Shown here in pieces: positions 5,084-24,237 of a DNA stretch of 64,000 nt; positions within the stretch are counted from its first letter, which is position 1, and every line of letters begins with the position of its first letter. Made by a program: the position numbers and the translations under genes. The DNA is from Ruminococcaceae bacterium BL-4 (GTDB taxonomy: Bacteria; Bacillota; Clostridia; Oscillospirales; Acutalibacteraceae), in the NCBI GenBank assembly GCA_902809935.1, contig LR778134.1:1798001-1862000 (forward strand), given 5' to 3'. Below the pieces are notes generated by a model. The model was not told where the DNA came from. It saw nothing but the letters and a program-made list of their open reading frames with translations, and ran no database searches.

Positions 5084-5164
5084 TTATCGTATTGGTAATG
5101 CGAATATGGTGAAGGAGAAAAACCAAGCGAGAATATTGGCATCTTTGAAATGGAGTATATCGTG

Positions 5165-6178
5165 ATGGATAAGAAAAATTATGTTGAGCAACAAATTAGA
5201 GATAAGGTAAAGGGTTACAACCGTCGGAGAATCGGTATCGCTATTCCTATCGTCATAATGACGGCATTTCTGCTAATAGTTCCGTCGCTTGGAAATGAGG
5301 CTCTATCTATCCGCTTTTCTGTGCTTTGCTCCGTCCTACTTCTTTTTTCCTTTTTGCTGTTCGTGTTTTCCGATAGGAACGCAACTCTGATATTCCTTGC
5401 TGCAACAATCATTGTGGCCGTGCTACTCGTTTATAAACAAATACATCCGGAATCGTTTTTTATTCTTGTCTTGATAAATGTTGGTGCGTTTTTGCTTTCC
5501 AGAAAGAATGCCCATGATTTTATTCAGGCGGCCACGAATGAAATTGAGACTCTAAATCATTTGAAGATTGAAGCTACTACAGACAGCTTAACGCAGCTTC
5601 TTAATCGAAACGGTCTGGAACAAGCCGTTTCCACAGCTTGGGCGTTCTGCAAACGCGAAAAAAAGAATGTTGGCTTGCTTTTGATAGATGTTGACTATTT
5701 TAAAAGTTACAACGATACATTGGGTCATTTGAAAGGTGACGATATTCTAAAACAAGTAGCGCATAACATAAAAACTTGTTTCAAAAGAGAAACCGATATT
5801 ATAGGCCGGATTGGTGGAGATGAGTTTTTAATTTTCCTATCGGATACAGGTAACGATCATATTGTAAAAATGGCACAGCTTCTTCTTTCAACTCTCACAG
5901 GTTTGAAAATCAAGGCATGTACAGGCTCTTTCCATTACTTATCTATAAGCATTGGCATGAAAACGGGTATACCGCAGGCAGACGATTCGTTTATTGACTT
6001 TTGTAACCGTGTGGACCGGGCTTTATACCACGCTAAAAAAAGCGGAAGGAATTGTATTTCTTATAACAGGGTTATTATCAGGAATCATACTGAGCAATCA
6101 CGGGGCAATGTCGTGGATGGCGTAATTGCCACAGGCAATTTAAGGACAGGCTCTGCCTGCGAGGATAGCAAGAACTGA
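5165..6178 (+). CDS. Membrane diguanylate cyclase (GGDEF) with I-site
   Basis: The 337-residue protein has four to five N-terminal membrane segments (roughly residues 22-112) and a C-terminal GGDEF domain that makes c-di-GMP from two GTP. The catalytic loop reads exactly GGDEF (217-221), a metal-binding Asp lies in LLIDVDYF (about 175), and RETD sits five residues before GGDEF, matching the RxxD product-inhibition site. It therefore looks catalytically intact and feedback-controlled. I prefer the ATG at 5165 over 5150 because GGAG lies 9 nt upstream of it. A c-di-GMP-I riboswitch in the same element (about 17.5 kb) makes a local signalling circuit plausible. Confidence 0.88.
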   Translation: MDKKNYVEQQIRDKVKGYNRRRIGIAIPIVIMTAFLLIVPSLGNEALSIRFSVLCSVLLLFSFLLFVFSDRNATLIFLAATIIVAVLLVYKQIHPESFFILVLINVGAFLLSRKNAHDFIQAATNEIETLNHLKIEATTDSLTQLLNRNGLEQAVSTAWAFCKREKKNVGLLLIDVDYFKSYNDTLGHLKGDDILKQVAHNIKTCFKRETDIIGRIGGDEFLIFLSDTGNDHIVKMAQLLLSTLTGLKIKACTGSFHYLSISIGMKTGIPQADDSFIDFCNRVDRALYHAKKSGRNCISYNRVIIRNHTEQSRGNVVDGVIATGNLRTGSACEDSKN

Positions 6179-6658: not shown

Positions 6659-6681
6659 AGTTCAGGAAGGAGGTTTTGTTC

Positions 6682-8088
6682 ATGGCAACAACGCGGCTGA
6701 TGCCACTGCATACCGGCAAGGGCCGGGATGTCGGCACGGCAATCAGCGATATTATTGATTACGCGGAAAATCCGGAGAAAACGGATTACGGCAGACTCAT
6801 CACCGGCTATGAATGCGACAGCCGGACAGCCGACGCCGAGTTCCTTTTCTCCAAGCGGCAGTATGCCGCGCTCACCGGCAGGACGCGCGGCGCGGATGAT
6901 GTGATTGCCTATCATCTCCGGCAGTCCTTTGTCCCCGGCGAGGTCACGTCGGAGGAAGCAAACCGAATCGGTTGTGAGCTTGCCAGACGCTTTACGAACG
7001 GGAAACATGCTTTCATCGTCTGCACCCACATTGACAAACACCACATTCACAATCATATCATCTGGAATTCCACGTCCCTCGACTGCACACGGAAGTTCCG
7101 AAACTTTTGGGGAAGCACCAGAGCCGTGCGGCGGCTGAATGATACGCTGTGCATCGAGAACTGTCTGTCCATTGTGGAGAATCCGAAGCGGCACGGCAAG
7201 AGCTATAACAAGTGGCTGGGCGATCAGGCAAAGCCCTCCAACCGGGAGCTTTTGCGTATGGCAATAGACACGGCTTTAGATCAAAAGCCCGCCGATTTTG
7301 ACGCGCTCCTGAAGCTCTTGCGGGAAGCCAGATATGAAATCAAACCGGGAAAAACGCTCGCCCTGCGCGGCAAAAATCAGAAGCGGTTTATCCGGCTGGA
7401 TACGCTGGGCAGCGGCTACAGTGAAGCAGAGCTTCGGGCCGTCCTCTCCGGCGAAAAAGCACACACACCGCGCAAAAAAATCATCCGGCCCACGTCGGAA
7501 AAACAAGTCAATCTGCTGGTGGATATTCAGGCCAAGCTCCGCGCAGGGAAAGGCATCGGTTATGAACGCTGGGCCAAGGTGTTCAACCTCAAGCAGATGG
7601 CGCAAACATTGAACTATCTGACCGAGCACAATCTGCTGGAGTACGATGCGTTGGCCGCTAAAACGGCTTTGGCAACCGCCCGGTACAATGAGCTTTCCGC
7701 ACAAATCAAGGCGGCTGAAAAACGGCTGGCCGAGATTGCCGTTTTGAAAGCACAGATCGTCAATTACGCCAAGACCCGCGACACCTATGTTACCTATCGC
7801 AAGGCGGGGTATTCAAAAAAGTTTCTTTCGGAGCATGAGAGCGATATCCTTTTGCACAAGGCGGCGAAGAAAGCGTTTGATGAGCTGGAAGTGAAAAAGA
7901 TCCCCACCGTCAAGAGCTTACAGGCCGAATACGCGGCGCTTCTGACAGAGAAAAAGGCGGCTTATGCCGACTACCGTAATGATCGTGACGAGATGAAAGA
8001 ATTGCTTACCGTCAAGGCCAATGTGGATCGTTTACTCGGCACCGACAGGCGCGAAGCGGAGAAAGAAAAAGAACATGGGCAGCGTTGA
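6682..8088 (+). CDS. Relaxase/mobilization nuclease (MobA/VirD2-like)
   Basis: This 468-residue protein nicks oriT and carries the strand to the recipient. The N-terminal ~210 residues are the relaxase domain, with the three-histidine metal motif in HIDKHHIHNHIIWN (about 114-127) and an early Tyr-containing segment (IIDYAENPEKTDYG) where the nucleophile is expected. The C-terminal half is largely coiled coil. The start is the ATG at 6682, preceded by AGGAAGGAGG; an alternative TTG lies at 6676. It is an intact gene, about the usual length for this family. A set of inverted repeats follows it (8108-8252). Confidence 0.9.
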   Translation: MATTRLMPLHTGKGRDVGTAISDIIDYAENPEKTDYGRLITGYECDSRTADAEFLFSKRQYAALTGRTRGADDVIAYHLRQSFVPGEVTSEEANRIGCELARRFTNGKHAFIVCTHIDKHHIHNHIIWNSTSLDCTRKFRNFWGSTRAVRRLNDTLCIENCLSIVENPKRHGKSYNKWLGDQAKPSNRELLRMAIDTALDQKPADFDALLKLLREARYEIKPGKTLALRGKNQKRFIRLDTLGSGYSEAELRAVLSGEKAHTPRKKIIRPTSEKQVNLLVDIQAKLRAGKGIGYERWAKVFNLKQMAQTLNYLTEHNLLEYDALAAKTALATARYNELSAQIKAAEKRLAEIAVLKAQIVNYAKTRDTYVTYRKAGYSKKFLSEHESDILLHKAAKKAFDELEVKKIPTVKSLQAEYAALLTEKKAAYADYRNDRDEMKELLTVKANVDRLLGTDRREAEKEKEHGQR

Positions 8089-8555: not shown

Positions 8556-10187
8556 TCAGGCATTCATGAACAGTTTGATGTCATCATCAACTGTTCCGAC
8601 ACCCGCGATACCGAATTTTTCAACCAATACCTTGGCCACATTGGGAGACAGAAAGCCCGGCAGCGTGGGGCCGAGGTGGATGTTCTTCACGCCCAAGTAC
8701 AGCAAAGCCAAGAGAACGATGACGGCCTTCTGTTCGTACCAGGCGATATTGAAAGCAATCGGCAGCTTGTTAATATCGTCGAGTCCAAACACCTCTTTGA
8801 GTTTCAGGGCGATGACCGCCAGAGAATAGGAGTCGTTGCACTGTCCGGCGTCCAGAACTCTCGGAATACCGCCGATATCGCCCAGCTTCAGTTTATTATA
8901 GCGATACTTCGCACAGCCCGCCGTAAGAATTACCGTGTCCTTCGGGAGCTTCTCCGCAAACTCGGTGTAGTATTCCCTGGACTTCATACGTCCGTCACAG
9001 CCGGCCATAACCAAGAACTTTTTGATCGCACCGGATTTGACGGCATCGACGATCTTGTCTGCCAGAGCCATCACCTGATTATGGGCAAAGCCGCCGACAA
9101 TGCTGCCAGTCTCAATCTCATCGGGCGCGGGAAGAGTCTTGGCAAGCGCGATGATCTCGGAAAAGTCCTTTTTGCCGTTCTCATCGGCTTCAATATGCTT
9201 GCAGCCGGGATAGCCGGTGGAACCCGTGGTAAAGATTCTGCCCCGGACCTCCTCACTTCTTGGCGGGACGATGCAGTTGGTAGTAAAGAGGATGGGGCCA
9301 TGGAAGGAGACAAATTCCTCAAGCTGCTTCCACCATGCATTGCCGTAGTTTCCGGCAAAGTTGTCGTATTTTTTGAAAGCCGGGTAATAATGGGCAGGCA
9401 GCATCTCGCTGTGGGTATACACATCCACGCCAGTACCTTTGGTTTGCTCCAGAAGCTGCTCCAGATCGGTCAGGTCGTGACCGGAAATCAGGATCGCAGG
9501 ATTTTTTCTGACGCCGATATTGACCTCGGTGATTTCAGGATTGCCGAACCGTGACGTGTTGGCCTCGTCCAGTAGCGCCATAACTTTGACACCGTATTCG
9601 CCGGTTTTCAGCGTCAGCGCGACAAGATCGTCGGCGGAGAGGGAGTCGTCCAGTGTTGCCGCCAGTGCCTCATAGATGAAGGCGTTGATGGTCAAATCTT
9701 CTTTTCCGATGTTTTTCGCGTGCTCGGCGTAAGCAGCCATACCCTTAAGGCCGTATGTGATCATCTCGCGGAGAGAACGCACGTCCTCGTTTTCGGTTGA
9801 CAGCACGCCGACGGTAGCGGCCTTTTCCAGCATGGACGCTCTGGAACTTACCGTAAACGTGGCCGCATCGTGTAAACCCGCAGAAGCAACGGAATTTCTG
9901 AGCTTGTCTCTTACGGCAATCATTTTCATGATCTGTTTTTCAATCGAGCCGTCGTCGAAATTCGCGTTGGTGATGGTCATGAACAGGCTGCTGAGAACTT
10001 CATAATTTGTCTCGCCGAGGGTTTTGACGTCCAGCTTTCCTTTGACTACAATTTCTGAAATGCCCTTGAGCGTGTAAATCAGAAGATCCTGAAGCTTTGC
10101 CACTTCTTCGGTTTTTCCGCAGACGCCGCGCACCGCGCAGCCCTTTCCTCCGGCAGTTTCCTGACACTGATAACAAAACATACTCAT
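8556..10187 (-). CDS. hcp: Hybrid cluster protein / hydroxylamine reductase
   Basis: The 543-residue protein reduces hydroxylamine and, in other bacteria, NO. The N-terminal cysteines have the spacing C-x2-C-x7-C-x5-C ([20 protein letters not shown]), the arrangement of class I enzymes from strict anaerobes with a [4Fe-4S] cluster. Hybrid-cluster ligands are visible as SGHDL, TNCIVPP, YPGCKHI (persulfide Cys), AGCAKYRYN and [10 protein letters not shown]. Length and motifs are complete. It is the fourth gene in an operon with a dicluster Fe-S protein, a cupin, rubredoxin and ferredoxin, and lies opposite a Crp/Fnr regulator, the usual setting for HcpR control under nitrosative stress. Confidence 0.97.
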
Positions 10188-10208
10188 TTTTGCTTCCTCC
10201 TTTAAAAT

Positions 10209-10373
10209 TCAGTCTTCAACAGGTTCAAATTCATCTTTACCGACAAAACAAATGGGGCACTGCCAATCATCGGGTAAATCTTCAAATGCCGTACCGGGCG
10301 CGATGCCGCTGTCGGGATCACCAAGCGCGGGATCATAGATATACCCGCAGGGAATACACCTGTACTTTTTCAT
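10209..10373 (-). CDS. Rubredoxin
   Basis: A 54-residue rubredoxin. The four iron ligands are Cys6/Cys9 (CIPCG) and Cys39/Cys42 (CPIC), with the family's [10 protein letters not shown] and [11 protein letters not shown] segments. The usual Gly after the second pair is Phe ([11 protein letters not shown]). The start ATG at 10373 follows a good ribosome site (GGAGG). It lies between the cupin and hcp genes and likely passes single electrons to Hcp or to an NO/O2-detoxifying partner. Confidence 0.93.
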
Positions 10374-10394
10374 CCGGATTCCTCCTTCGCTTTC

Positions 10395-10709
10395 TCAGCT
10401 TTTCGGAGCAGGCGCCTTTACGACAATCAGCTCCAGCGTTTCGTCATGCACATTTCTGACATTCATTTTGGTTTGAAACGGAATTTTCAGCAGCGTTCCG
10501 GCCTCGTACTCATGGATTTCCTGATCATCAAGGCCGATGGAAAGCTGTCCTCGAATGACGGTCATATACACGTTTGAATTGGATAAGTGTTCCGGCAGCC
10601 CCTCGCCCTTGTTGAACACCATGTGGAGGTAATGCAGGTTTTCGTCAAATAAGATTTTTTCTATCGCTTTTTCATTGGAAGTGGACAGCTTATACTCTTT
10701 TTCTACCAT
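10395..10709 (-). CDS. Cupin-fold small protein
   Basis: A 104-residue single-domain cupin with a typical beta-strand rhythm (LHYLHMVFNKGEGLPEHLSNSNVYMTVIRGQLSIGL...YEAGTLLKIPFQT). Only part of the usual His/Glu metal set is present (E and H in LPEHLSNS), so metal binding is uncertain. It is placed inside the hcp operon, 15 nt downstream of the dicluster Fe-S gene, and may sense or bind a small ligand; no specific function can be assigned. Confidence 0.8.
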   Translation of the reverse strand: MVEKEYKLSTSNEKAIEKILFDENLHYLHMVFNKGEGLPEHLSNSNVYMTVIRGQLSIGLDDQEIHEYEAGTLLKIPFQTKMNVRNVHDETLELIVVKAPAPKS

Positions 10710-10724
10710 AATAATAGACTCCTG

Positions 10725-11429
10725 TCAATCAAGAATTTTCCCGTCGGTTGAAATCGTGACAACCTGCCAGGGAATCATTTTGCCGCTGTTTTGAAGCGCT
10801 CTTTTTACTGCGTTTTCAATCCCGCCGCAGCAGGGAACTTCCATTCTGACGACCGTAACGCTTTTTATATTGTTGTTTCGAATGATCTCTGTGAGTTTGT
10901 CGCTGTAATCTCCTTCGTCCAGCTTGGGGCAGCCGATCAGGGTCACTTTGTTTCGGATAAACCTGTTGTGAAAATCTCCGTAAGCATAGGCCGTACAGTC
11001 GGCGGCGATCAGGAGGTTGGCGTCCGCGAAATAAGGAGCGTTGACCGGCGCAAGTTTGATTTGGACGGGCCACTGTGACAACTGGCTTTTGTTTTCGCTG
11101 ATATTGGGATGGACGGCCTCACACTTATTTTCCCGATGGATGGTTTTAGACTGCGTACCGGGGCAGCCGCAGGCCAGCGTTTCTCCCTGTTTGCTCAGCA
11201 TGTTTTTCTTCACGGCGGCTTCATCATATTCTTTTGCATCGCGTTCCTCGAAACTAATAGCCCCTGTCGGGCAGGCCGGCAAACAGTCGCCGAGGCCGTC
11301 GCAGTAATCGTCGCGGAGAAGCTTGGCCTTTCCGTTTATCATTCCGATTGCCCCTTCGTGACAGGCTTTTGCGCACAGTCCGCAGCCGTTGCATTTCTCT
11401 TCATCAATTCTGATAATTTTTCGAATCAT
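10725..11429 (-). CDS. Dicluster [4Fe-4S] protein of the hcp operon
   Basis: A 234-residue protein. The N-terminal 60 residues hold two ferredoxin motifs (CNGCGLCAKACHEGAI and CDGLGDCLPACPTGAI). A linker with ACGCPG follows, then a C-terminal domain with a conserved CPKLDE segment and a CCGGIENAV motif. Proteins of this architecture commonly sit beside hcp in Clostridia and are thought to feed it electrons; that role is inferred. It is the first gene of the minus-strand operon, and its promoter region contains a palindromic regulator site. Confidence 0.88.
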   Translation of the reverse strand: MIRKIIRIDEEKCNGCGLCAKACHEGAIGMINGKAKLLRDDYCDGLGDCLPACPTGAISFEERDAKEYDEAAVKKNMLSKQGETLACGCPGTQSKTIHRENKCEAVHPNISENKSQLSQWPVQIKLAPVNAPYFADANLLIAADCTAYAYGDFHNRFIRNKVTLIGCPKLDEGDYSDKLTEIIRNNNIKSVTVVRMEVPCCGGIENAVKRALQNSGKMIPWQVVTISTDGKILD

Positions 11430-12309: not shown

Positions 12310-12993
12310 TCAGGAGTCTATATGCAGTTTGTTCAGCAAATCGACATCCATGATTGTGATCTGTTTTGGATCATAGGTGATAAGGCCGTCTTTTCTCATT
12401 TTATTCAGCTCTCTTGACAGAGATGGCCTTTGGACCCCTATTTTTTCAGCCAGTTCTTTTTTGGTCATATTCAATTTAATAGTATTTGATTTTTGTATGT
12501 GGCATTCATAAAGCAAAAACTCAATGATACATTGTCTGATTGTCTTTAACGTTAATATTTTAATCTTGCCTGTTAAAATAAGCGTTTTATCGGATACAGA
12601 CTGGAGAAAGCCCTTCAGAAATTTACTGTTATCTTGGCACAGCTTCAAAATCAATTCTTTCTTGATCTGGAGAATTTTCGCATCACACTTTGCGGTGATT
12701 GTCATGGGATAAAAGTTTCTGTGTGAAAACAGGAGATTTTCTCCCATAACCTCACCGGCCGAAAAACTGCAAATCGTGAGCAGATCCCCATCCGAATCAA
12801 TTTTTTGTACTAAGACAGTCCCGCTCAAAATGATGTCAAGGCTTTCACATTTTTCGTTCTGAAGATGTACTATGGAATCTTTGAAGTAAGTGCTGGTACG
12901 GTAAAGATTATTTTGAAACAATTTATCCAGTTCATTATTCGAGAAGCACTTAAACAGATTTACCGTTTCTAGAAAAGAAATAAAATTATCCAA
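12310..12993 (-). CDS. Second Crp/Fnr-family regulator, divergent from the DCCP-like operon
   Basis: A 227-residue protein with a Crp-type sensor domain (IILSGTVLVQKIDSDGDLLTICSFSAGEVMGENLLF) and a C-terminal helix-turn-helix (TKKELAEKIGVQRPSLSRELNKMRKDGLI). It is only moderately similar to the HcpR-like protein encoded at 11529 and is more A+T-rich. It faces the 2-hydroxyacyl-CoA dehydratase-like operon across a short intergenic region containing a 26-bp perfect palindrome, so it probably activates that operon and controls itself. The ligand is unknown. Confidence 0.88.
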   Translation of the reverse strand: MDNFISFLETVNLFKCFSNNELDKLFQNNLYRTSTYFKDSIVHLQNEKCESLDIILSGTVLVQKIDSDGDLLTICSFSAGEVMGENLLFSHRNFYPMTITAKCDAKILQIKKELILKLCQDNSKFLKGFLQSVSDKTLILTGKIKILTLKTIRQCIIEFLLYECHIQKSNTIKLNMTKKELAEKIGVQRPSLSRELNKMRKDGLITYDPKQITIMDVDLLNKLHIDS

Positions 12994-13011: not shown

Positions 13012-13059
13012 AAAGGAGTAACCATGGTTACTCCTTTCACTTTTGTTTTTGATTATAAT
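13012..13059 (+). promoter_or_regulatory. 26-bp palindromic operator and promoter of the DCCP-like operon
   Basis: The sequence at 13012-13037 is a perfect 26-bp palindrome with half-site AAAGGAGTAACCA and its complement. A consensus TATAAT follows at 13054-13059, giving a predicted start near 13066. The palindrome centre (13024.5) is then at -41.5, as for class II Crp/Fnr activation. No good -35 box is present, which fits activator dependence. The operator also lies 19 bp before the start of the divergent regulator gene. Confidence 0.7.
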
Positions 13060-13095: not shown

Positions 13096-14274
13096 TTGGA
13101 TAAAAAATATGAGGATCAAATCCTGAAATCGATGGATGCCGTGCGCGAAAAAGCACCAGATATCCCGCTGGATTATTTTTTCGATATCTGGAAGGGATTC
13201 TGGTTTGGGGAACAAAAGACAGAAATGCCGTCCATAGCGGTATTGGGAACCGGTATTCCTGAATTATATATTCGGGCTGCTGGTGCGAAACCGCTATTTT
13301 TGCTGGGAGGCAATTACTTTACGGATCAATACGCAGAACAGGTGTTTCCGCAGATTTCGGACCCTGTGCTCAAATCCGCAAGCAGCATTCTCTTTTCCGA
13401 ACAGCTCTCCTGCATGAGGGATATCATCGGGATGGTTGTGTCGGTGAGCAACGCAGATACGCGTAAAGTTGTGTCTTATTTAAAAGACCTGGGGCATCCG
13501 GTGATTGTGATGGAGGAGGAGCCGTTTATGGATTCAAAAGCCACATCACGGTTTCGGTCGTCACAGATGGATTTAGTTATGGAGCTGCAAAAGCTCACAC
13601 ACCGACCGATCACCGCCAAGAGCATCCGAACTGCCGCGAAGCAAATCACCAGCGCACATGATGCCATCCGGCACCTTAAAACTATGGATATTCCGCAAAT
13701 CGCAAAGGATTTTATCAAGCAGACCTATTATCTTGCTCCTGACATTCAGGACTGGACCGACCGCGTGAATGGATTCGCCGAGGAAAACCTGAAGCCGATG
13801 CCCGAAAACCGGTCCCATCTGCTGCTGATCGGGTCACCGATCTTTTTCCCGAATGTCAAAATCCCGACTGTATTACATAATGTCGGCATCCAAAATTATG
13901 AGAATCACTGCGGAGTCCCTGATCCGGAGGATTACACAGAGCTTATGGAGCATGATCCTTTCTCGCTGAATTCCATGTTCAGGGATCTGAATGAAATTCA
14001 TTACAGATCGGCACAAAACGATATTGCTCGCGCACTGTGTTCTGATACTTCTTTCCTGCAAAACGCCAGCGGTGTCATATACCATCTGCTCAAGGGACAA
14101 CTCATGTATGCTTATGAAGCGAATCGGATTGAAAAGGCCGCCATCAGGGCGGGGATTCCGTTCGTCTGCATTGAAACAGATTATACGAATGCCGATACCG
14201 AACAGATCAGAATCCGCCTGGAAGCATTTTCAGAACTGCTGACGCAGACCGGAAAACTGCCTGCGGCAGTATAA
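13096..14274 (+). CDS. Cysteine-depleted paralogue of the 2-hydroxyacyl-CoA dehydratase / double-cubane protein family
   Basis: About 392 residues, related along its whole length to the protein encoded at 15431: both share PVLK, IAGSP/LIGSP-ITFPN/IFFPN, VIYHLL/IL-G and the ending ETD-EQ-IRLEAF. Aligning the two shows that cysteines at family positions are replaced here: ACPVLK becomes SDPVLK, TCDGKRK becomes NADTRK, RGC becomes KGQ, and CACTC is absent. Only the Cys in NHCG is kept. It probably cannot hold the usual cluster and may be a structural or regulatory partner. The open frame reaches an ATG at 13024, but that codon lies inside the operator; I choose TTG 13096 after GAAAGGGG, with ATG 13075 as alternative. 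Confidence 0.8.
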   Translation: MDKKYEDQILKSMDAVREKAPDIPLDYFFDIWKGFWFGEQKTEMPSIAVLGTGIPELYIRAAGAKPLFLLGGNYFTDQYAEQVFPQISDPVLKSASSILFSEQLSCMRDIIGMVVSVSNADTRKVVSYLKDLGHPVIVMEEEPFMDSKATSRFRSSQMDLVMELQKLTHRPITAKSIRTAAKQITSAHDAIRHLKTMDIPQIAKDFIKQTYYLAPDIQDWTDRVNGFAEENLKPMPENRSHLLLIGSPIFFPNVKIPTVLHNVGIQNYENHCGVPDPEDYTELMEHDPFSLNSMFRDLNEIHYRSAQNDIARALCSDTSFLQNASGVIYHLLKGQLMYAYEANRIEKAAIRAGIPFVCIETDYTNADTEQIRIRLEAFSELLTQTGKLPAAV

Positions 14275-14322
14275 AAATAAATATTTATCAGCTTAAAACT
14301 CAAAGCGATTAAGGAGGAACTT

Positions 14323-14721
14323 ATGCCATTCAGCTTTCTTTTACAAGAACTGCATCAAAAGGCTGCGGAAAAGATAAAAGCGGCAAAAGCGCATCGTAGG
14401 ATTATTGCCGTCGTGATTGTAGCTGCTCTTGTCACGATCGCCTTTTTCACCATCAAAACGAATCTTGCGCGGAGCTCAGAGGTTGGGAACTCAGCACCCG
14501 CAAGCAATATAATGCAAAGCGCAGGGAACGCAGCCCAGCCAAACGGTGGCAATCAAACCGAAACCGCTATGCAGGCCAAAACACTTAAGCGCATTGAAAA
14601 TGTTGCCTCTATTTTAGGTATTGCCGTATTGACATCGGGAGGCATGATAATCTATTACCAAAAAAAGAAAAAACGCGTTGCACCGCTTCCGGTACTGCGG
14701 AGTGAGGAGGAGACACATTGA
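14323..14721 (+). CDS. Small two-TM membrane protein of the DCCP-like operon
   Basis: A 132-residue protein of unknown family. It has an N-terminal cytosolic basic helix, one membrane segment (about 27-46), an Asn/Gln/Ala-rich extracytoplasmic stretch with little predicted structure (about 50-85), a second membrane segment (about 94-112) and a basic tail. There are no cysteines or metal motifs. AAGGAGG precedes the ATG. Its stop overlaps the TTG start of the membrane ferredoxin gene, so the two proteins are probably made together and may form one membrane complex. Confidence 0.75.
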   Translation: MPFSFLLQELHQKAAEKIKAAKAHRRIIAVVIVAALVTIAFFTIKTNLARSSEVGNSAPASNIMQSAGNAAQPNGGNQTETAMQAKTLKRIENVASILGIAVLTSGGMIIYYQKKKKRVAPLPVLRSEEETH

Positions 14722-15431
14722 AGCAGCGTAAAATTACGGCTTTCCGTATCATGTGTCTACTGATTGCCGTTGCTGTACTCGTTTTTCTGGGAAGCGGATA
14801 CCGGATTATTATTTTGTTGCTCAGCATCTTCAGCGCTCTGGTTTTTGGGCGCCTCTGGTGCGGCTATGTCTGCCCACTGGGCTTTTATCAGGAACTGCTT
14901 TCAATGCTTCGGAAAAAACTGCATATTCCGACGTTCCACGTGTCATTAAAGGTGAAATCCTATTTGCGTCCGCTGAAATGGATCATACTTGTATATTTTC
15001 TGGCCAGCGTTTTGTTTTTTGGGTTGCGCCCAGTTATGTATATACGGCCCGACCTTTCCTTCAGCAGCGCAGATATGAGTATCTATAAAATCATTATTGT
15101 CGGTATTGTAACGGGAATTTGTTTTCTGAAAGAAAGGGCGTTCTGTAAATACTGCCCGCTAGGGACACTCCGGGGCTTTGTCAATAAAATTAGCTTCGGA
15201 AAAATTAAAAAGGACGGCACCGCGTGTACACACTGCCGCGCTTGTCTTGAATGTTGTCCAATGGATATCCGCTCCATTTATGAAGAACGCAACAAATCCG
15301 ATATCACTCACTCGGATTGTATCTACTGTATGAAATGCATTGAGGCATGCCCGGAGCAGGATGTGCTTTCTTTTACCCTGTTTGGAAAAAAGGTATTGTC
15401 CTCCAAACGTAATAGTAAGCAGGTGAAATAA
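14718..15431 (+). CDS. NapH/NosR-like polyferredoxin membrane protein
   Basis: A 237-residue membrane protein with about four membrane helices and two pairs of Fe-S motifs. CGYVCP and FCKYCP are the cytosolic C-x2/3-CP motifs of the NapH/NosR/CcoG group; CTHCRACLECCP and CIYCMKCIEACP near the C-terminus each bind a [4Fe-4S] cluster. Such proteins move electrons between the membrane and soluble redox enzymes. The start is TTG 14718 after GAGGAGGAGA, overlapping the upstream stop, and its own stop overlaps the next ATG. Placement between the two paralogous enzymes suggests that it supplies electrons to their activase, an inference. Confidence 0.88.
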   Translation: MKQRKITAFRIMCLLIAVAVLVFLGSGYRIIILLLSIFSALVFGRLWCGYVCPLGFYQELLSMLRKKLHIPTFHVSLKVKSYLRPLKWIILVYFLASVLFFGLRPVMYIRPDLSFSSADMSIYKIIIVGIVTGICFLKERAFCKYCPLGTLRGFVNKISFGKIKKDGTACTHCRACLECCPMDIRSIYEERNKSDITHSDCIYCMKCIEACPEQDVLSFTLFGKKVLSSKRNSKQVK

Positions 15432-16663
15432 TGGAAGAGCGTACATTAGAACGTTATAAGCGAAATATTTCGCGTGTTTCGGCTGGTTCACTGAAACAGT
15501 TGACATCTACGGGAAATGTTCCCAAGGAGCTTGAATATTTTACGAATGTTCTTAAAAGAACATTCGTCGATTTTGAAAAAGATGACAACGAGTACATAGG
15601 TAGCTACTGCGTGATGGTGCCGGATGAAATGATATACGCATTTGGCTACAGGCCGCTGCGCTTATGCGCTGGGCACAGCGTTGCGGCGATGATCGGGGAT
15701 GAGATTGTCCCGCGTGATGCATGCCCAGTCCTGAAGGCAACTGCCGGTTTTCACGCAATGCGCGTCATGCCAATCTATCAGCAGTGCAGGCTGGCAGTGC
15801 TGCCGATGACCTGCGATGGCAAGCGAAAAAGCGCTGCGCTTTTGTCGCAGTACCTTCCGGTTATTCCCTTGCCGATTGAAATGGATAAGTCGGAGGAACG
15901 CTTTGCGCAGAACCTGCAAAACATGCATGCTCTCATGAAAAGTATTTCCAAAGAAACGGGCCGCAGGTTCTCCAACCGGAAACTGATTGAATCCTGCAAA
16001 AGCATTAATGTGGCACAGCAGGAAGCATATAAACTATACGGCTTGCTCTCATCCGACAATCCGCCTGTCACGGGTTCGCAGGTTATGGCAGTGCTGAACA
16101 GCTACTGTTACGATACGCCGGAAAGTTGGGCGCAGCACGCGAAAATATTGAATGCCGGACTTTCCCAAAAAGCAGCTGCCATGCAGCCTTTGAAAAGGGA
16201 AAAGCCGCGTATCTTTATTGCAGGCTCTCCCATTACATTTCCAAACTATAAACTGCCGTTTTTGATGGAAGGTCTGGGGGCACAGATTGTCGGAGACGAG
16301 ACGTGTATGGCGGGGAGGCTTTTATACGACCCCGTTGTTCCTGATGAGTACAGTACAGACGGCATCTTACGTGCGCTTACGGCGCGATATGTTTGCGCAT
16401 GTACGTGTCCGGTATTCGAGCAGACGGACGATCGCCTCAGCAGTCTCACAGAAAAACTGCGTCAGACGAAAGCGGAGGGCGTTATTTATCATATCCTGCG
16501 CGGCTGCACGCCTTACGACTTCGAATTGTCCATGGTGGAACAGCTGGCAGATAAGCTTGATATTCCGGTTCTGCGTGTGGAAACAGATTTCTCCGCCGAG
16601 GATGCAGAACAGGTAAAAATCCGCCTGGAAGCGTTTGTTGAATTGATAGAACAAAGGAGATAA
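15431..16663 (+). CDS. Double-cubane-cluster-like reductase subunit (2-hydroxyacyl-CoA dehydratase D-component family)
   Basis: A 410-residue protein with the full cysteine set of the HgdB/DCCP family: Cys60 (SYCVMVP), Cys79 (RLCAGHS), Cys98 (ACPVLK), Cys128 (TCDGKRK), Cys292 (ETCMAGR), Cys322/324/326 (CACTCP) and Cys359 (RGC). Family members are either 2-hydroxyacyl-CoA or benzoyl-CoA type enzymes or homodimeric double-cubane proteins that reduce small molecules such as acetylene or hydrazine in vitro. No acyl-CoA transferase, CoA ligase or other fermentation gene is nearby, which favours the second group. The ATG shares a base with the upstream TAA, and the activase gene follows after 4 nt. 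Confidence 0.87.
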   Translation: MEERTLERYKRNISRVSAGSLKQLTSTGNVPKELEYFTNVLKRTFVDFEKDDNEYIGSYCVMVPDEMIYAFGYRPLRLCAGHSVAAMIGDEIVPRDACPVLKATAGFHAMRVMPIYQQCRLAVLPMTCDGKRKSAALLSQYLPVIPLPIEMDKSEERFAQNLQNMHALMKSISKETGRRFSNRKLIESCKSINVAQQEAYKLYGLLSSDNPPVTGSQVMAVLNSYCYDTPESWAQHAKILNAGLSQKAAAMQPLKREKPRIFIAGSPITFPNYKLPFLMEGLGAQIVGDETCMAGRLLYDPVVPDEYSTDGILRALTARYVCACTCPVFEQTDDRLSSLTEKLRQTKAEGVIYHILRGCTPYDFELSMVEQLADKLDIPVLRVETDFSAEDAEQVKIRLEAFVELIEQRR

Positions 16664-16667
16664 ATAC

Positions 16668-17477
16668 ATGGGAAACTATTACGTGGGACTGGATGCCGGT
16701 TCGACATACCTGAAAGCGGCATTGATAAAGGATAACTGTGTTTTAGGCGCTGAACTTCTTCCAACAGGCATCGACTGTGAGGAAACTGCGACCAAATTGC
16801 TGGAAAAGATCTATGCGAGCCAAAGTATCACACGCAATGATATCGCCGTAATCACCGCAACCGGATACAGCAGGCGCAGTATCGGCCTCGCAGATGCCAC
16901 AATTTCAGAAATCACCGCTCATGCCTGCGGTGTACAATTGACAGCCCCTGAAAACGTGCATCCGCGCTTGATCATTGATATCGGAGGCCAAGACAGCAAG
17001 ATCATCAGCCTTGGCCCCGATGGACATATCGTTAATTTTACAATGAATGATAAATGCGCCGCTGGAACAGGAAAGTTCTTGGAGGTCGTGGCTGATCTTC
17101 TGGAAACTACCATTGATCAGATTGCTTCGCTTGCGAAAGAGAGTACAGACCCCTGTCAAATCAACAGCACCTGCGCCGTTTTCGCCCAGACGGAAGTGAT
17201 CTCTCTTCTTGCTCAAAAGAAAAGCCGAAGTGATATCCTTGCAGGTATGCATATAGCCATGGCAAACCGTATCGCCAAAATGGCGCGTAAATATAAGTCG
17301 GATGGCGATGTGATGATGACCGGAGGCGGCGCTAACAATGATGCTCTTCGATCTGCGTTGGAAGATGAACTGATGTGCGATATTTACAAAGCAAACTATC
17401 CGCAGTTCAACGGCGCAATCGGAGCTGCTTTAATTGGCATGCATAATACTGAAAAAATGCAGGTCCAAATTTCTTAA
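16668..17477 (+). CDS. ATP-dependent activase/reductase of the HgdC/DCCP-R type
   Basis: A 269-residue ASKHA-fold ATPase. Phosphate-binding segments GLDAGSTYLKA (N-terminus), DIGGQDSK and MTGGGANND are present, and the two cysteines that hold one [4Fe-4S] cluster between two subunits are in DKCAAGTGKF and NSTCAVFAQ. Such activases use ATP hydrolysis to drive low-potential electron injection into their partner enzyme. One activase gene serves two dehydratase-like genes here, and it is adjacent to the cysteine-complete one. The length is normal and no key residue is missing. Confidence 0.95.
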   Translation: MGNYYVGLDAGSTYLKAALIKDNCVLGAELLPTGIDCEETATKLLEKIYASQSITRNDIAVITATGYSRRSIGLADATISEITAHACGVQLTAPENVHPRLIIDIGGQDSKIISLGPDGHIVNFTMNDKCAAGTGKFLEVVADLLETTIDQIASLAKESTDPCQINSTCAVFAQTEVISLLAQKKSRSDILAGMHIAMANRIAKMARKYKSDGDVMMTGGGANNDALRSALEDELMCDIYKANYPQFNGAIGAALIGMHNTEKMQVQIS

Positions 17478-17496: not shown

Positions 17497-17581
17497 TATC
17501 AGAAAAGGCAAACTGACCGAAAGGCAGGGGCATAAAGCCAAGAGTCTAAGGTAAATAAGCGTACTATGATAGTCTGGTTGC
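17497..17581 (+). ncRNA. c-di-GMP-I (GEMM) riboswitch
   Basis: The core matches the GEMM consensus: AAAGGCAAAC, a small GAAA-capped stem (CTGACCGAAAGGCAG), GGGGCATAAAGCC, GAGTCTAAGG, then GATAGTCTGGTTGC. ATCAG (17498-17502) pairs with CTGGT (17574-17578) to close P1. The base before GC in GGCAAAC, equivalent to G20, is G, as expected for c-di-GMP binding. A large hairpin follows within 3 nt. The nearest downstream gene is the Cys-rich KTR protein; the RNA also lies only 20 nt after the activase stop, so it may act in the 3' region of that operon. Confidence 0.82.
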
Positions 17582-17583
17582 AA

Positions 17584-17631
17584 AAAACATATCTTGACTC
17601 TGCTACTCCGGATAGAGTCAAGATATGTTTT
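17584..17631 (+). terminator. Large hairpin following the c-di-GMP riboswitch
   Basis: An 18-bp perfect inverted repeat (starting AAAACATATCTTGACTCT) with a 12-nt loop ends in TTTT. It is the likely expression platform of the riboswitch and also the end of the DCCP-like operon. The T run is short, so termination strength is uncertain. Confidence 0.75.
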
Positions 17632-17664: not shown

Positions 17665-17856
17665 ATTACAACGGAAATCAAATGGGTATTATGCCCTGTT
17701 TGTAATAACAAGACACGTCTAAAAATCCGTGAGGATACAATCCTTAAAAACTTTCCGCTATTTTGTCCCAAGTGCAAACATGAGACACTAATAAATGTAC
17801 GACATCTGAAAATATCAGTTATCAAAGAGCCAGCCGCTGAGACGCAGAGCCGATAA
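17665..17856 (+). CDS. Cysteine-rich KTR-type protein, no standard start codon
   Basis: The frame encodes about 63 residues with two CPxC motifs (CPVCNNKTR and CPKCKHET) and the family ending VIKEPAAETQSR, matching the Cys-rich KTR family of Firmicutes elements; a zinc-ribbon fold is likely. In-frame ATG, GTG or TTG is absent at the expected site: after AGGAGTG the frame reads GAT-ATT-ACA-ACG-GAA. Either ATT at 17665 is used or the start codon has been lost and the gene is silent. It lies directly downstream of the riboswitch and hairpin. Confidence 0.6.
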   Translation: MTTEIKWVLCPVCNNKTRLKIREDTILKNFPLFCPKCKHETLINVRHLKISVIKEPAAETQSR

Positions 17857-19264: not shown

Positions 19265-19798
19265 CCCCCGAATCAGCCCCAAAAATGAAAAGGTTTATGA
19301 GGGATATGTTTTTATTCTTCTCTGAACCTCGAAAACTGAACAAGAGACAAGCCGGATACATACCGCAAGCAGCGGCATACAGGGAGCCGGACGGCGGGTG
19401 CGCCATGATCTTTCCTTGCGCGGGAGAGGGTGATTGGATATCAGCGTAACGGAGAGGGAGCGAAAAACACCAACGCCGCAGTCAGAGCAGCGTCCAACGA
19501 ACGCAGGCGGCTCTGTGGCAAGCATCTGTATGTAATGAAACTTCCGTTCAGTCACAGTCCGAGCGTGATAAAACCGTCGCAGGCAATGAGAACGGCCCGC
19601 CATCAGAATGGGGGGAGGTGCAATTCCTATGGTAACAGGCACGCCGCCTGTTCGTCCGGAATGTCTGTAAACATAAAAAGCAAATCGAAACAAAGGGACA
19701 GCCGCGCCGAAACGCGCCAGCCGTATGGCTGCTTTAACCTGAAATCGGCGTGGCTGTCATTTTTATATGGGTATGGTTTGGAATGGAGGTGTCTCTTT
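19265..19798 (+). other. Gene-free 534-bp stretch before tnpW
   Basis: No reading frame here has a recognisable protein or a good ribosome site. The only clear structure is a 14-bp imperfect stem at 19697-19710 with 19745-19758 (GACAGCC-CGCCGA / TCGGCG-GGCTGTC), followed by ATTTTTAT. The stretch is as G+C-rich as the element backbone and is probably untranslated leader or decayed sequence. Confidence 0.5.
19697..19765 (+). terminator. Long hairpin upstream of tnpW
   Basis: The 14-bp stem encloses 34 nt that contain a smaller hairpin (CAGCC/GGCTG). A T-rich stretch follows. It could be an attenuator for tnpW and the recombinases. Confidence 0.5.
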
Positions 19799-20109: not shown

Positions 20110-21774
20110 ATGATCGAAAAAACATACAACGTGGGCATCTACTGCCGACTGTCCAACGACGATGAGCGCGACGGCGAATCCGCCAGCATTGAAAATCAAA
20201 AGCTGCTTCTCCAACGGTATGTCCGTGAGCGCGGCTGGAATGAAATCGATGTATATACCGACGACGGATACTCCGGAACAAACTTCGACCGTCCCGGTGT
20301 CCAGCGATTGATTGAGGATGCCAAAGCAAAGCGCATTAACGTGATTTTAGTCAAGGACCTGTCGCGTTTCGGCAGAAACTACATTGAATTTGGGCAATAC
20401 ACGGATTACCTGTTTCCTTCCATTGGATGCCGCTTCATTGCGCTGAACAACGGCATCGACACGGAAAGCACCAACGGCAGCACCGATGTTATGTGTTTTT
20501 TGAACTTATTTAACGAGTTTTACAGCCGGGATACCAGCAAGAAGGTCAAGGCCGTAAAAAAAGCGTGTGCGGAGGACGGAAAATTCATGGGAACCTATCC
20601 CGCCTACGGCTACAAGCGCGACCCTGCGGATAAGCATCATCTTGTGATCGACGAGGAAACCGCGCTGGTTGTGCGCCGGATTTTCGCCATGCGCTGCCAG
20701 GGCATGGGGTTCCGTGCCATCGCCGTTGTGCTTAATGAAGCAGGCGTTCAGCCGCCCGGAGTGCTGTACTATCGGCGCAAAGGGCAAAGCGACCCGCGTA
20801 ATGTCAACCATCAGTGGGCCGATACCACAGTCCAGGTTATTCTCCGAAATGAGGTTTATATTGGAAATATGGTACAGGGCAAGCACGGGACGCTTTCCTA
20901 TAAATCCCGCAAGCTTGTAACCAAGCCGGAGGATGAATGGATACGGGTGGAAAAGACCCACGAAGCAATCATTCCCCGCGATGTGTGGGACACGGTTGTC
21001 AGCATTGACCAGAAGAAGGTGCGGAAGTCTCCCGCCGCCGCAGGCCGAAAAAGTATTTTCACCGGCCTTGTCTACTGCGCCGACTGCGGTTTCAAAATGC
21101 GGTCCCACAATGAAACCCGCAAGTACAGCGACGGCCATACGCAGATATTCCACTCCTTCATCTGCGGCAATTACAGCCGCAGCGGGAAAACCGCCTGCAC
21201 TATCCACATGATTTATGAGGATGTGCTGAGTAAGCTCGTATTGGCGGATATCCGGGAAAAAGCGCAGTATGCGGAGTACGACCGGGACCGGCTTGTGGCG
21301 CAGATCACCCGTCTGAAGGACAAGGAAACCCGCAGCCGCCTGTCCTCTTATGAACAAGAGCTGAAAACGGCAACCGTCCGCGTTTCGGAGCTGGAAAAGC
21401 TGATGCAGAATCTCTATGAGGACAAATGCAAAGGCGTCATTCCGCAGACCGTGTTCCAGACACTGATGCAGAAATATGAATCCGAGCGCGCGGAAAAAGC
21501 CGCCGCTCTCCCGGAACTGGAACAAAAGGTCCGGGCGCAGCGTGGAAACAGGCAGGACGCGGATCGCTGGACGGATATCATCCGGCGCTATACGGAAATC
21601 ACGGAGCTGGATGAAACCATCCTGTTTGAACTGGTGGACCGCATCGAGGTGGGCGAAACTCAAAAGCAGGGCGCCCTTCGCATCTGCGACATCAAGGTGC
21701 ATTACCGCTACGTTGGCAATGTGGACGAGGCGCTGACGCAGGAAAAGAGGGAGCGTTATGAAAAAGCTGTATAA
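20110..21774 (+). CDS. Large serine recombinase 1
   Basis: A 554-residue recombinase. The resolvase catalytic domain occupies about residues 6-150, with the nucleophile Ser in YCRLSNDD and the conserved LVKDLSRFGRNYIE block. A recombinase domain follows (to about 290), then a zinc ribbon (CADCGFKM...C) and a long coiled coil before a C-terminal strand region. It is full length for element integrases of this class, which cut with a 2-bp stagger and join attP to attB. It overlaps the second recombinase gene by 17 bp, so the two are coupled and may act as a pair. Confidence 0.93.
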   Translation: MIEKTYNVGIYCRLSNDDERDGESASIENQKLLLQRYVRERGWNEIDVYTDDGYSGTNFDRPGVQRLIEDAKAKRINVILVKDLSRFGRNYIEFGQYTDYLFPSIGCRFIALNNGIDTESTNGSTDVMCFLNLFNEFYSRDTSKKVKAVKKACAEDGKFMGTYPAYGYKRDPADKHHLVIDEETALVVRRIFAMRCQGMGFRAIAVVLNEAGVQPPGVLYYRRKGQSDPRNVNHQWADTTVQVILRNEVYIGNMVQGKHGTLSYKSRKLVTKPEDEWIRVEKTHEAIIPRDVWDTVVSIDQKKVRKSPAAAGRKSIFTGLVYCADCGFKMRSHNETRKYSDGHTQIFHSFICGNYSRSGKTACTIHMIYEDVLSKLVLADIREKAQYAEYDRDRLVAQITRLKDKETRSRLSSYEQELKTATVRVSELEKLMQNLYEDKCKGVIPQTVFQTLMQKYESERAEKAAALPELEQKVRAQRGNRQDADRWTDIIRRYTEITELDETILFELVDRIEVGETQKQGALRICDIKVHYRYVGNVDEALTQEKRERYEKAV

Positions 21775-23416
21775 GGTCGGCATCTACTGCCGCCTGAGCG
21801 TGGACGACGCCTCCAATTCCGCGAAAGCGAAAAGCTACATCCCCGCCGACGAATCCGCCAGCATCGAAAATCAACGGGAAATCCTCTCCAAATTTGTGAT
21901 GCTGAACGGCTGGACGGAGGTGAAAATCTACGCCGACGACGGGTACAGCGGCGGCAACTTTCAGCGTCCCGGTTTTCTGGAGATGCTGGAGGACGCCAGA
22001 AAAGGCATTATCAACCTAATCCTCGTCAAAGACCTGTCCCGGCTGGGACGCGACTTTGTAGAGGTGGGTCGGTACACGGACGTTGTGTTTCCCGCCCTTG
22101 GGTGCCGCTTCGTCTCCGTGTTGGACTGTCTGGACACCGAGGGCGACAATACCGATATGCTCCACTTCCGCAGTTTGATGAACGACTACCATTTGAAGGA
22201 TTTAAGCAATAAAATCAAGTCCGTGCGGTACGCTAAAATGAAAAGCGGGCAGTTCCTTTCCGCTTACGCCCCTTACGGCTATCGCAAAAGCGAGGACGAT
22301 AAACACAAGCTGGTGATCGACGAATACGCCGCAGACGTGGTTCGCAGAGCCTTTTCCATGCGGCGGGACGGCGCGGCCTATGGCAAGATTGCCGCCGCTT
22401 TCAATCAGGACGGCATCCTTCCCCCGCGCGGGTACTGGCACAGCCTGTACGGAACCGGCGAATGCCGGTATTCTCAAATTTGGACCTGCACAGCCGTAAA
22501 AAACCTTCTGAACAGCCAGGTCTACCTTGGAAACCTGCTGATGAATTATACCGGCTCCCGTTCCTATAAGGACGGCACGATGATTTATAAGCCGGAATCC
22601 GAGTGGATACGGTGCGAGGCAACCCATAAAGCAATCGTTACCCCGGAAGAATGGGAGGCCGTGCAAAAAATCAATCAGGCTGCAAAGCGCCGCGTTGAGA
22701 ATAACCGAAAGCCGACCCGAAGCCTTTTCTCCGGCAAGCTGGTCTGCGCGGACTGCAAAGGTCCGCTTGGCGCAAGCACGGAGACACAGCATCGTAAAAA
22801 CGGTACTGTAAAACGCTATGTTTCCTACTGCTGTGAGCGATATATCCAGTCGGGCCGGAGCGTTTGTTCCTGGCACCGTATTTATGAAATGACGCTGGCG
22901 CAGATCGTAATGGCTGAAATTAAATCGGACGCCGAGACCGTCACTCTGGATGAAGCCGGTGCGGTGGAAAAACTCAAGCGCCGGATGGCACAGTTTGATG
23001 AACAGCGCATGGCGAACACCCATCAGGAAATCGGAAAACTGCGCCGCCGCTTGCAGGAATTGGAGAGCATGACCGCAAAGCTCTATGAGGACAAGGTTAG
23101 CGGCGCGATCAGCGAGAGCACCTTTTCGGTGCTGATAACGAAAAACGAACAGGAGCGCCTTATCAAAGCCGAACGCTTTGACGCGCTTCTGTCCGAAGTT
23201 AAAAAATCCGACCAGGATGCCGCCGACATTCAAAATTGGGCGGCAACGATCCGCAAATATCTAAACTTACAGGAACTTGACCGGGAAACCATAGACGAGC
23301 TGATAGACCACATTGAAATTGGCGAACGCACCGTCGTTGACGGTAAGCGCAGGCAGGATGTTAACGTGTTTTATCGTTTTGTCGGGCAGGTCAACCGGGA
23401 ATATGATATGCAATGA
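21758..23416 (+). CDS. Large serine recombinase 2
   Basis: A 552-residue paralogue of the upstream recombinase with the same order: catalytic domain with YCRLSVDD and VKDLSRLGRDFVEVG, recombinase domain, zinc ribbon (CADCKGPLG...C..C), coiled coil. It starts inside the preceding gene at 21758. Elements with two tandem serine recombinases often need both for excision. Its stop at 23416 lies about 35 bp before a truncated third recombinase on the other strand, so the right end of the element is probably in this gap. Confidence 0.93.
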   Translation: MKKLYKVGIYCRLSVDDASNSAKAKSYIPADESASIENQREILSKFVMLNGWTEVKIYADDGYSGGNFQRPGFLEMLEDARKGIINLILVKDLSRLGRDFVEVGRYTDVVFPALGCRFVSVLDCLDTEGDNTDMLHFRSLMNDYHLKDLSNKIKSVRYAKMKSGQFLSAYAPYGYRKSEDDKHKLVIDEYAADVVRRAFSMRRDGAAYGKIAAAFNQDGILPPRGYWHSLYGTGECRYSQIWTCTAVKNLLNSQVYLGNLLMNYTGSRSYKDGTMIYKPESEWIRCEATHKAIVTPEEWEAVQKINQAAKRRVENNRKPTRSLFSGKLVCADCKGPLGASTETQHRKNGTVKRYVSYCCERYIQSGRSVCSWHRIYEMTLAQIVMAEIKSDAETVTLDEAGAVEKLKRRMAQFDEQRMANTHQEIGKLRRRLQELESMTAKLYEDKVSGAISESTFSVLITKNEQERLIKAERFDALLSEVKKSDQDAADIQNWAATIRKYLNLQELDRETIDELIDHIEIGERTVVDGKRRQDVNVFYRFVGQVNREYDMQ

Positions 23417-23871: not shown

Positions 23872-24123
23872 ACCGCCAACCTCCTGTATGTAAAATGCTC
23901 TAAGCAGCTTCATTAACCATGACAAAAATCATGATAAATAAGCCTCTTAGAGCATATAACACCATAAACCTCTATATTGTATATTGTCGAAACAGTATTA
24001 AACTAAATATTAGAAAAAAATATTAGGGAAAAGTATAATATCCCAAATTAATCCAGATTAATATCATTCTACACTTTGGTGAGTATTGAGATTTCGAAAT
24101 GCGCGAAATGCACATAAAAGGTT

Positions 24124-24206
24124 AAAAAGCACACTCGGTGAAAGCCGAGGCCGCAAAACTATAGGGCCCAGCATAATTGAGAGACCAAAGGACAGCCAGT
24201 TGCCGA
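24124..24206 (+). ncRNA. GEMM-like riboswitch with A at the G20-equivalent position
   Basis: The order of elements matches GEMM-I: AAGCACA, a six-pair stem with GAAA loop (CTCGGTGAAAGCCGAG), GCCGCAAAACTATAGGGCCC, then GGACAGCCAGTTGCCG. Where c-di-GMP-I RNAs have GGC this has AGC, the change known from the GEMM-Ib (cGAMP-type) class. The P1 pairing is weak as far as I can see. The last bases, GCCAGTTGCC, form a perfect alternative hairpin with 24221-24230, a normal expression platform. The next frames are a sortase remnant and a pilus-type gene set. Confidence 0.55.
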
Positions 24207-24237
24207 TGAAAATGATCATAGGCAACTGGCAAATTTT
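24195..24237 (+). terminator. Attenuator hairpin of the second GEMM-like RNA
   Basis: GCCAGTTGCC (24195-24204) and GGCAACTGGC (24221-24230) pair perfectly with a 16-nt loop and are followed by AAATTTT. The 5' arm is shared with the 3' end of the aptamer, so aptamer and terminator are mutually exclusive. Confidence 0.7.

Follow-up and report, generated by a model that had tools for sequence, protein, structure and literature searches.

A stretch of 64,000 nucleotides (nt) from Ruminococcaceae bacterium BL-4 (contig LR778134.1, positions 1,798,001 to 1,862,000), called the window below, carries a five-gene cassette encoding two paralogues related to the double-cubane cluster protein (DCCP), here A and B, together with a small membrane protein, a NapH-like membrane polyferredoxin and an ATP-dependent activase (Table 1). 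B keeps the cysteines of the double-cubane family; A has lost the three of the proximal cubane and nearly all the rest. We consider it moderately probable that the cassette encodes a membrane-tethered, ATP-driven reductase working at very low potential, in which each A-B heterodimer would hold a single double cubane. As far as we know, double-cubane proteins have a nitrogenase-like ATP drive and no known physiological role.

The evidence starts from eight sites, numbered as the cysteines of B (60, 79, 98, 128, 292, 324, 326 and 359), which were assigned as [8Fe-9S] ligand sites by alignment and were not taken from the DCCP structure paper. All eight cysteines are present in each of the 22 B proteins aligned. 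In the A protein of the window the same sites hold G, L, D, N, G, two gaps and Q, thus all three proximal-cubane cysteines are replaced (C98 by D, C128 by N and C359 by Q). Site 98 is Asp in 23 of 23 A proteins, site 359 is Gln in 22 and Glu in one, and site 128 is occupied by Asn, Cys, Ser or Asp. The remaining family cysteines are also lost from A, with two exceptions: the type named after genomes G277 and G346 has a Cys near site 326, and the window type has one next to site 292. Among the DCCP, HadB-, HadC- and long-type rows of the alignment that are complete at sites 98, 128 and 359, all sampled proteins keep these three cysteines. In BzdO, a subunit of the class I benzoyl-CoA reductase BzdNO, the cluster is bound by Cys95, Cys128 and Cys380 at the position of the proximal sub-cluster (PMC11971306), and, as matched by position, these residues would correspond to our sites 98, 128 and 359.

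An earlier reading of the window, made from the DNA letters alone (the sequence-only reading), had proposed a double-cubane-like two-subunit system with one cluster-free subunit, and at the sequence level this proposal is now strongly supported by the ligand loss in all 23 A proteins, by joint encoding and by co-divergence with B. Its statement that the downstream paralogue keeps the family cysteines was confirmed for all eight sites. The objection that it raised against itself, that other cysteines of A might stand in for the lost ligands, was addressed by the alignment, in which no replacement set was found: no column is Cys across the A family and the scattered cysteines form no cluster motif. 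Of the Asp, Ala and Gln that it placed at lost sites, the Asp and the Gln stand, but site 128 is Asn and the Ala adjoins it. The Cys of the NHCG motif, described as a retained family cysteine, aligns one column off Cys292 and is found only in A's nearest relatives.

The predicted structure of A (predicted local distance difference test score, pLDDT, 84) has the HGD-D fold of DCCP, its best matches being 7yzm and 6eno (template modelling score, TM, 0.76), and it has lost neither the full length of that fold nor the C-terminal core that it has in common with B. By profile as well as by fold the nearest family is DCCP, which rules out a HadB- or BzdO-like protein. Judged by its aligned ligand sites A is nevertheless not classed as a DCCP, because its proximal-cubane cysteines are replaced (sites 98 and 359 in 23 of 23 proteins). 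A decaying pseudogene is ruled out by purifying selection and by conservation across lineages: the ratio of nonsynonymous to synonymous substitution rates (dN/dS) among close copies is mostly 0.16-0.2 for A and about 0.07 for B. Mean identity is 0.30 for A versus 0.46 for B. The invariant Asp, together with the near-invariant Gln and Lys357, suggests that a changed pocket has been retained in A (Asp113, Lys357 and Gln359, numbered from the ATG at 13024). The predicted structure of B (pLDDT 89) matches 6eno and 7yyl with a TM of 0.91. With the NCBIfam double_cubane profile NF040772 the B proteins score 267-325 bits, the A proteins 99-186 and a relative from Sulfurovum (see below) 322, all of them below the cut-off of 350 bits, and ordinary DCCPs score 491-550 bits. 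The scores with the Pfam profile PF06050 are 112 bits for A and 273 bits for B.

A was found only in relatives of the window genome within the class Clostridia (1,453 genome look-ups in all), and in 6 of the 391 genomes of the class sample. The complete set of A, polyferredoxin, B and activase was read directly in 19 genomes of gut-type anaerobes from several Clostridia families, running from A through the small membrane protein (or its fused counterpart), the NapH-like protein and B to the activase; the grouping on which the sequence-only reading depended thus recurs elsewhere. Beyond these 19, three cassettes lie at contig edges or have a split A, one A is on a 3.5-kb contig, and the activase of G866 was missed by the open reading frame (ORF) filter. 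Wherever the contig is long enough A and B are encoded together, and A is never lost from complete contigs; with A devoid of ligands, this would argue against a homodimer in which both subunits are metallated. The divergence of the two proteins is matched (Mantel r 0.87, p 5e-5, eight lineages). Near-identical A proteins (95-98%) occur in genomes of three families, and the window contains a relaxase gene (6676-8088) and two serine recombinase genes (20110-23416), which supports recent transfer on a mobile element; the mobile element had been named by the earlier reading. A scan of IMG/VR found no relative and a scan of genome contigs found near copies only; the plasmid scan gave one relative of A, the Sulfurovum protein, which turned out to be an undivided outgroup.

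In the phylogenetic tree A forms one clade (support 100/100), B another (99/97), and the two are sisters (96/86). The next outgroup, grouping with A and B at 98/95, is the cassette of a Sulfurovum mangrovi plasmid (NZ_CP087125, 355916-361994; locus L142, 351012-370157), which encodes one fully cysteine-bearing protein, an activase, a NapH-like protein, a DsbD_2 protein and a Fer4_5/DUF4198-like protein (weak DUF4198 match), has no A, and is placed between TonB receptors and a resistance-nodulation-division (RND) pump. Since this closest outgroup has only one protein of the family, with its cysteines complete, the simplest and probable history is that an undivided, membrane-linked double-cubane cluster (DCC) system was duplicated and that one of the copies, the later A, then lost its whole cluster. 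For BzdNO, too, the heterodimer has been proposed to descend from a homodimeric DCCP-like ancestor whose gene was duplicated (PMC11971306). The Sulfurovum neighbours may hint at the substrate class; they point, more than hcp does, to an imported, perhaps metal-bearing compound.

The NapH-like polyferredoxin is present in all cassettes. A UbiA-type prenyltransferase was found neither in the window genome nor in eight others that carry the cassette, thus a quinol donor is unlikely in these nine genomes, and so is a quinol-driven NapH. Rnf is present in 18 of the 21 cassette genomes. From the missing UbiA and the frequent Rnf we infer that ferredoxin would be the donor, with the NapH-like protein as a membrane relay. 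The cassettes of the G277, G990, G1070 and G1021 types also contain a DsbD_2 protein with paired transmembrane cysteines, and it is exactly in these types that an extracytoplasmic FxC...SxC loop is added to the NapH-like protein, together with a CxxCP motif; the window, G375, G1055 and G889 types lack the DsbD_2 protein and these NapH additions alike. In the G277 type the DsbD_2 gene is followed by a gene for a membrane-anchored protein that matches no Pfam family and ends in a conserved RCGGCxKNCSLxxPRC tail (L058, 5355-5918; at the same position in L059, L106, L110, L111 and L113). The sequence-only reading had noted the membrane polyferredoxin but missed the membrane coupling of the wider family, with its DsbD-like partner, extracytoplasmic cysteines and TonB/RND-linked Sulfurovum relative.

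The mechanism that we favour would run as follows. Cellular ferredoxin, not quinol, would feed the NapH-like membrane polyferredoxin, which would pass electrons to the activase, presumed to be a dimer with one [4Fe-4S] cluster, and ATP hydrolysis would drive them onto the [8Fe-9S] double cubane of B, for reduction of a small substrate that is probably not a CoA ester. B and the cluster-free A would replace the DCCP homodimer, so that each complex would contain one active double cubane. A, which keeps the fold, would complete the docking surface for the activase and the membrane carrier, and its emptied pocket (the three residues named above) would be under selection, perhaps for substrate access or gating. 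It must be noted that several observations weigh against this picture or the history given for it. Rnf was not detected at the cut-off in G067, G990 and G346, therefore the donor may vary. The approximately unbiased (AU) test does not reject two other placements of A, one outside a group of B and Sulfurovum (p 0.10) and one outside the metallated DCC proteins as a whole (p 0.08), and so does not fix the exact duplication point. Finally, the thiol carrier and the extracytoplasmic cysteines in many versions of the cassette may indicate outward electron flow across the membrane.

If this last point is taken further, the flow could be reversed: an ATP-driven booster would reduce the membrane polyferredoxin and, via the DsbD-like carrier, an extracytoplasmic acceptor, and the window version would be a trimmed one. 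We regard this as rather unlikely. It would account for the DsbD_2 protein tracking the extracytoplasmic NapH cysteines, for the cysteine-rich tail protein of the G277 type, and for the Sulfurovum relative between TonB receptors and an RND pump with its weak DUF4198 match; but the window, G375, G1055 and G889 types keep A, B, activase and polyferredoxin without the extracytoplasmic redox part, and known members of the family pass electrons to a cytoplasmic substrate. More broadly, and only tentatively, we suggest an asymmetric, ATP-driven, membrane-coupled double-cubane machine that after duplication lost the whole cluster from one subunit and moves ultra-low-potential electrons into or from a transmembrane ferredoxin and thiol relay serving an extracytoplasmic substrate. 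It is also conceivable, though unlikely, that A is a regulator or assembly chaperone of B and that B works as a DCCP-like homodimer. The faster divergence of A, seen in both identity and dN/dS, would fit such a role, and B-like proteins can work without a partner, as the Sulfurovum relative, which lacks A, shows. A regulator or chaperone is harder to reconcile with a full-length fold and a C-terminal core shared with B, with the first place of A in an operon from which it is never lost where contigs are complete, and with the heterodimers of such paralogues that are usual in 2-hydroxyacyl-CoA dehydratases (HAD) and benzoyl-CoA reductases (BCR).

Two further explanations concern the substrate. 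The sequence-only reading had favoured a nitrogenous one because of the adjacent hcp island, and a reductase of hydroxylamine or of an NO-derived, azide- or hydrazine-like compound acting together with this island was weighed on several grounds. The Prismane/hcp gene (8556-10187) adjoins the cassette as part of an island (8556-11429) with genes for a 54-aa rubredoxin, a cupin and a Fer4 protein (ferredoxin), and a Crp gene likewise lies beside the cassette. In G007 and one metagenome-assembled genome a different hcp module, its Hcp 46% identical, stands beside the same cassette (L063, 12561-18606; L056, 3541-9586) and also holds hemerythrin, HD-domain-like, cupin, ferredoxin and Crp genes, and in G1055 cupin, ferredoxin and Crp homologues, although not hcp itself, lie within 5 kb of the cassette. 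Substrates of DCCP in vitro are acetylene, hydrazine and azide, with physiological relevance not known (PMC11971306). On the other hand, hcp is present in 20 of the 21 cassette genomes and yet adjoins the cassette only in window-type elements, no hcp linkage was found in the G277, G1070, G1021 or G990 types, and a search of the window genome did not find the cassette operator at hcp. As a functional partner hcp was rejected because its link with the cassette is not conserved, and a nitrogenous substrate is not supported; we hold it to be quite improbable. The least probable explanation by far is an ordinary enzyme of the 2-hydroxyacyl-CoA dehydratase or benzoyl-CoA reductase kind, one subunit of which has degraded. 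The Pfam family and the activase are the same, and a heterodimer of paralogues is usual there, but in those enzymes the catalytic subunit retains the three cysteines of the proximal cubane, none of which A has, and the closest match of B, by sequence as by structure, is DCCP. Moreover, the window genome has four more PF06050 genes, arranged as two HAD-type pairs away from the cassette, which therefore comes on top of the ordinary dehydratases of the cell, and no CoA-pathway genes were recognised among the neighbours examined, in agreement with the earlier reading.

It is useful to compare the A-B pair with known systems. DCCP:DCCP-R of Carboxydothermus hydrogenoformans (6eno, 7yyl, 7yzm) shares with it the fold of B, all aligned cysteines, the activase and PF06050; the known DCCP, however, is soluble and homodimeric, each subunit holding a double cubane, whereas the cassette has a cluster-free paralogue and a membrane polyferredoxin. 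BzdNO (8s02) is, as the A-B pair would be, an ATP-activated heterodimer of paralogues with the double cubane in only one subunit and with clusters lost after duplication (PMC11971306). BzdO, in contrast, keeps a [4Fe-4S]-OH2 site on three cysteines, whereas A keeps none and has no CoA context. (R)-2-Hydroxyisocaproyl-CoA dehydratase HadBC (3o3m) likewise consists of two PF06050 subunits and an activase, but both its subunits are metallated, and A and B are nearer to DCCP. The Sulfurovum cassette shares the DsbD_2 protein, a NapH-like protein with the same extracytoplasmic cysteine loop, a B-like DCC protein and the activase, and differs in its single subunit and in its flanking genes. On these sequence comparisons the pair resembles DCCP and the HAD/BCR enzymes in its working and is a member of neither as defined, because B scores below the NCBIfam cut-off and A fails the ligand test. 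No earlier description of an A-B pair was met in the literature searched; the main DCCP papers were not part of it, thus novelty is not proven by this.

Table 1. Features of the cassette and its control region (window coordinates)
Feature	Position	Strand	Remarks
Crp/FNR-family regulator	12310..12993	-	PF13545 and PF00027; divergent from cassette
Palindromic operator AGTAACCATGGTTACT	13017..13032		core of a 26-nt perfect palindrome, 13012-13037
Predicted -10 element TATAAT	13054..13059	+	consensus match; fixed distance to operator
A, cluster-free DCCP paralogue	13096..14274	+	PF06050; frame open from ATG 13024
Small membrane protein	14323..14721	+	two hydrophobic segments, variable extracytoplasmic loop; position kept among cassettes
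NapH-like membrane polyferredoxin	14718..15431	+	two Fer4_5 and a 2[4Fe-4S] domain; TIGR02163 92 bits, failing the NCBIfam NapH cut-off of 213
B, DCCP-like double-cubane subunit	15431..16663	+	PF06050; phmmer E 3e-57 to Carboxydothermus DCCP (PDB 7yyl/6eno)
ATP-dependent activase, BadF/HgdC type (acyl-CoA dehydratase-type)	16668..17477	+	TIGR00241 240.6 bits, above cut-off

All five genes lie where the sequence-only reading had placed them, with the two paralogues around the small membrane protein and the polyferredoxin and the activase last. The stop/start coupling that it described was also seen: the start of the polyferredoxin gene lies inside the end of the preceding gene (4-nt overlap), and position 15431 is common to a stop and a start. 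The gap 3' of A is 48 nt, and 4 nt separate B from the activase. A TTG start at 13096 fits A better than the ATG at 13024, because the ATG sits inside the conserved operator and is followed by the perfect TATAAT, and because residues 1-22 of the longer form are modelled at pLDDT <50. The activase is 60-76% identical among distant cassettes. The small membrane protein is weakly similar to its counterparts in G375, G1055 and G1070, and in the G277 type an N-terminal extension of the NapH-like protein stands in for it. In G375 a seemingly unrelated 1411-aa activase-containing fusion (L057, 381-4616) is encoded about 4 kb upstream of the cassette.

A divergent Crp orthologue, 47-54% identical, is found beside the cassette in G375, G1055 and G889. 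The palindrome between crp and A differs by one base at most among the window type, G375 and G1055, and the 2.34-Mb window genome has no second site within 2 mismatches of it. Its midpoint falls about 41.5 nt before the predicted start of transcription, the distance from which Crp/FNR proteins usually activate. As the operator occurs in the window genome only at the cassette promoter, the cassette probably has its own dedicated Crp/FNR regulator.

Other features of the element were noted. Two c-di-GMP-I riboswitches are located at 17497-17585 (+) and 24118-24207 (+), the former directly 3' of the activase gene and followed by a small cysteine-rich ORF with the string KTR (about 17671-17853), and the same element carries a diguanylate cyclase (GGDEF) gene at 5150-6178. 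Functions of the element are possibly under cyclic di-GMP control. A match to the pemK RNA family (19532-19632, +, 50.1 bits) lies upstream of the recombinase genes.

In the published scheme members of this family diversified via loss of a sub-cluster, thereby gaining an active site (PMC11971306). The cassette takes this series further, with one subunit that has lost its cluster completely. It also ties double-cubane chemistry to the membrane, the first such case in the literature searched. The operon is compact, mobile and singly regulated, which makes it usable for genetic tests of the role of these proteins.

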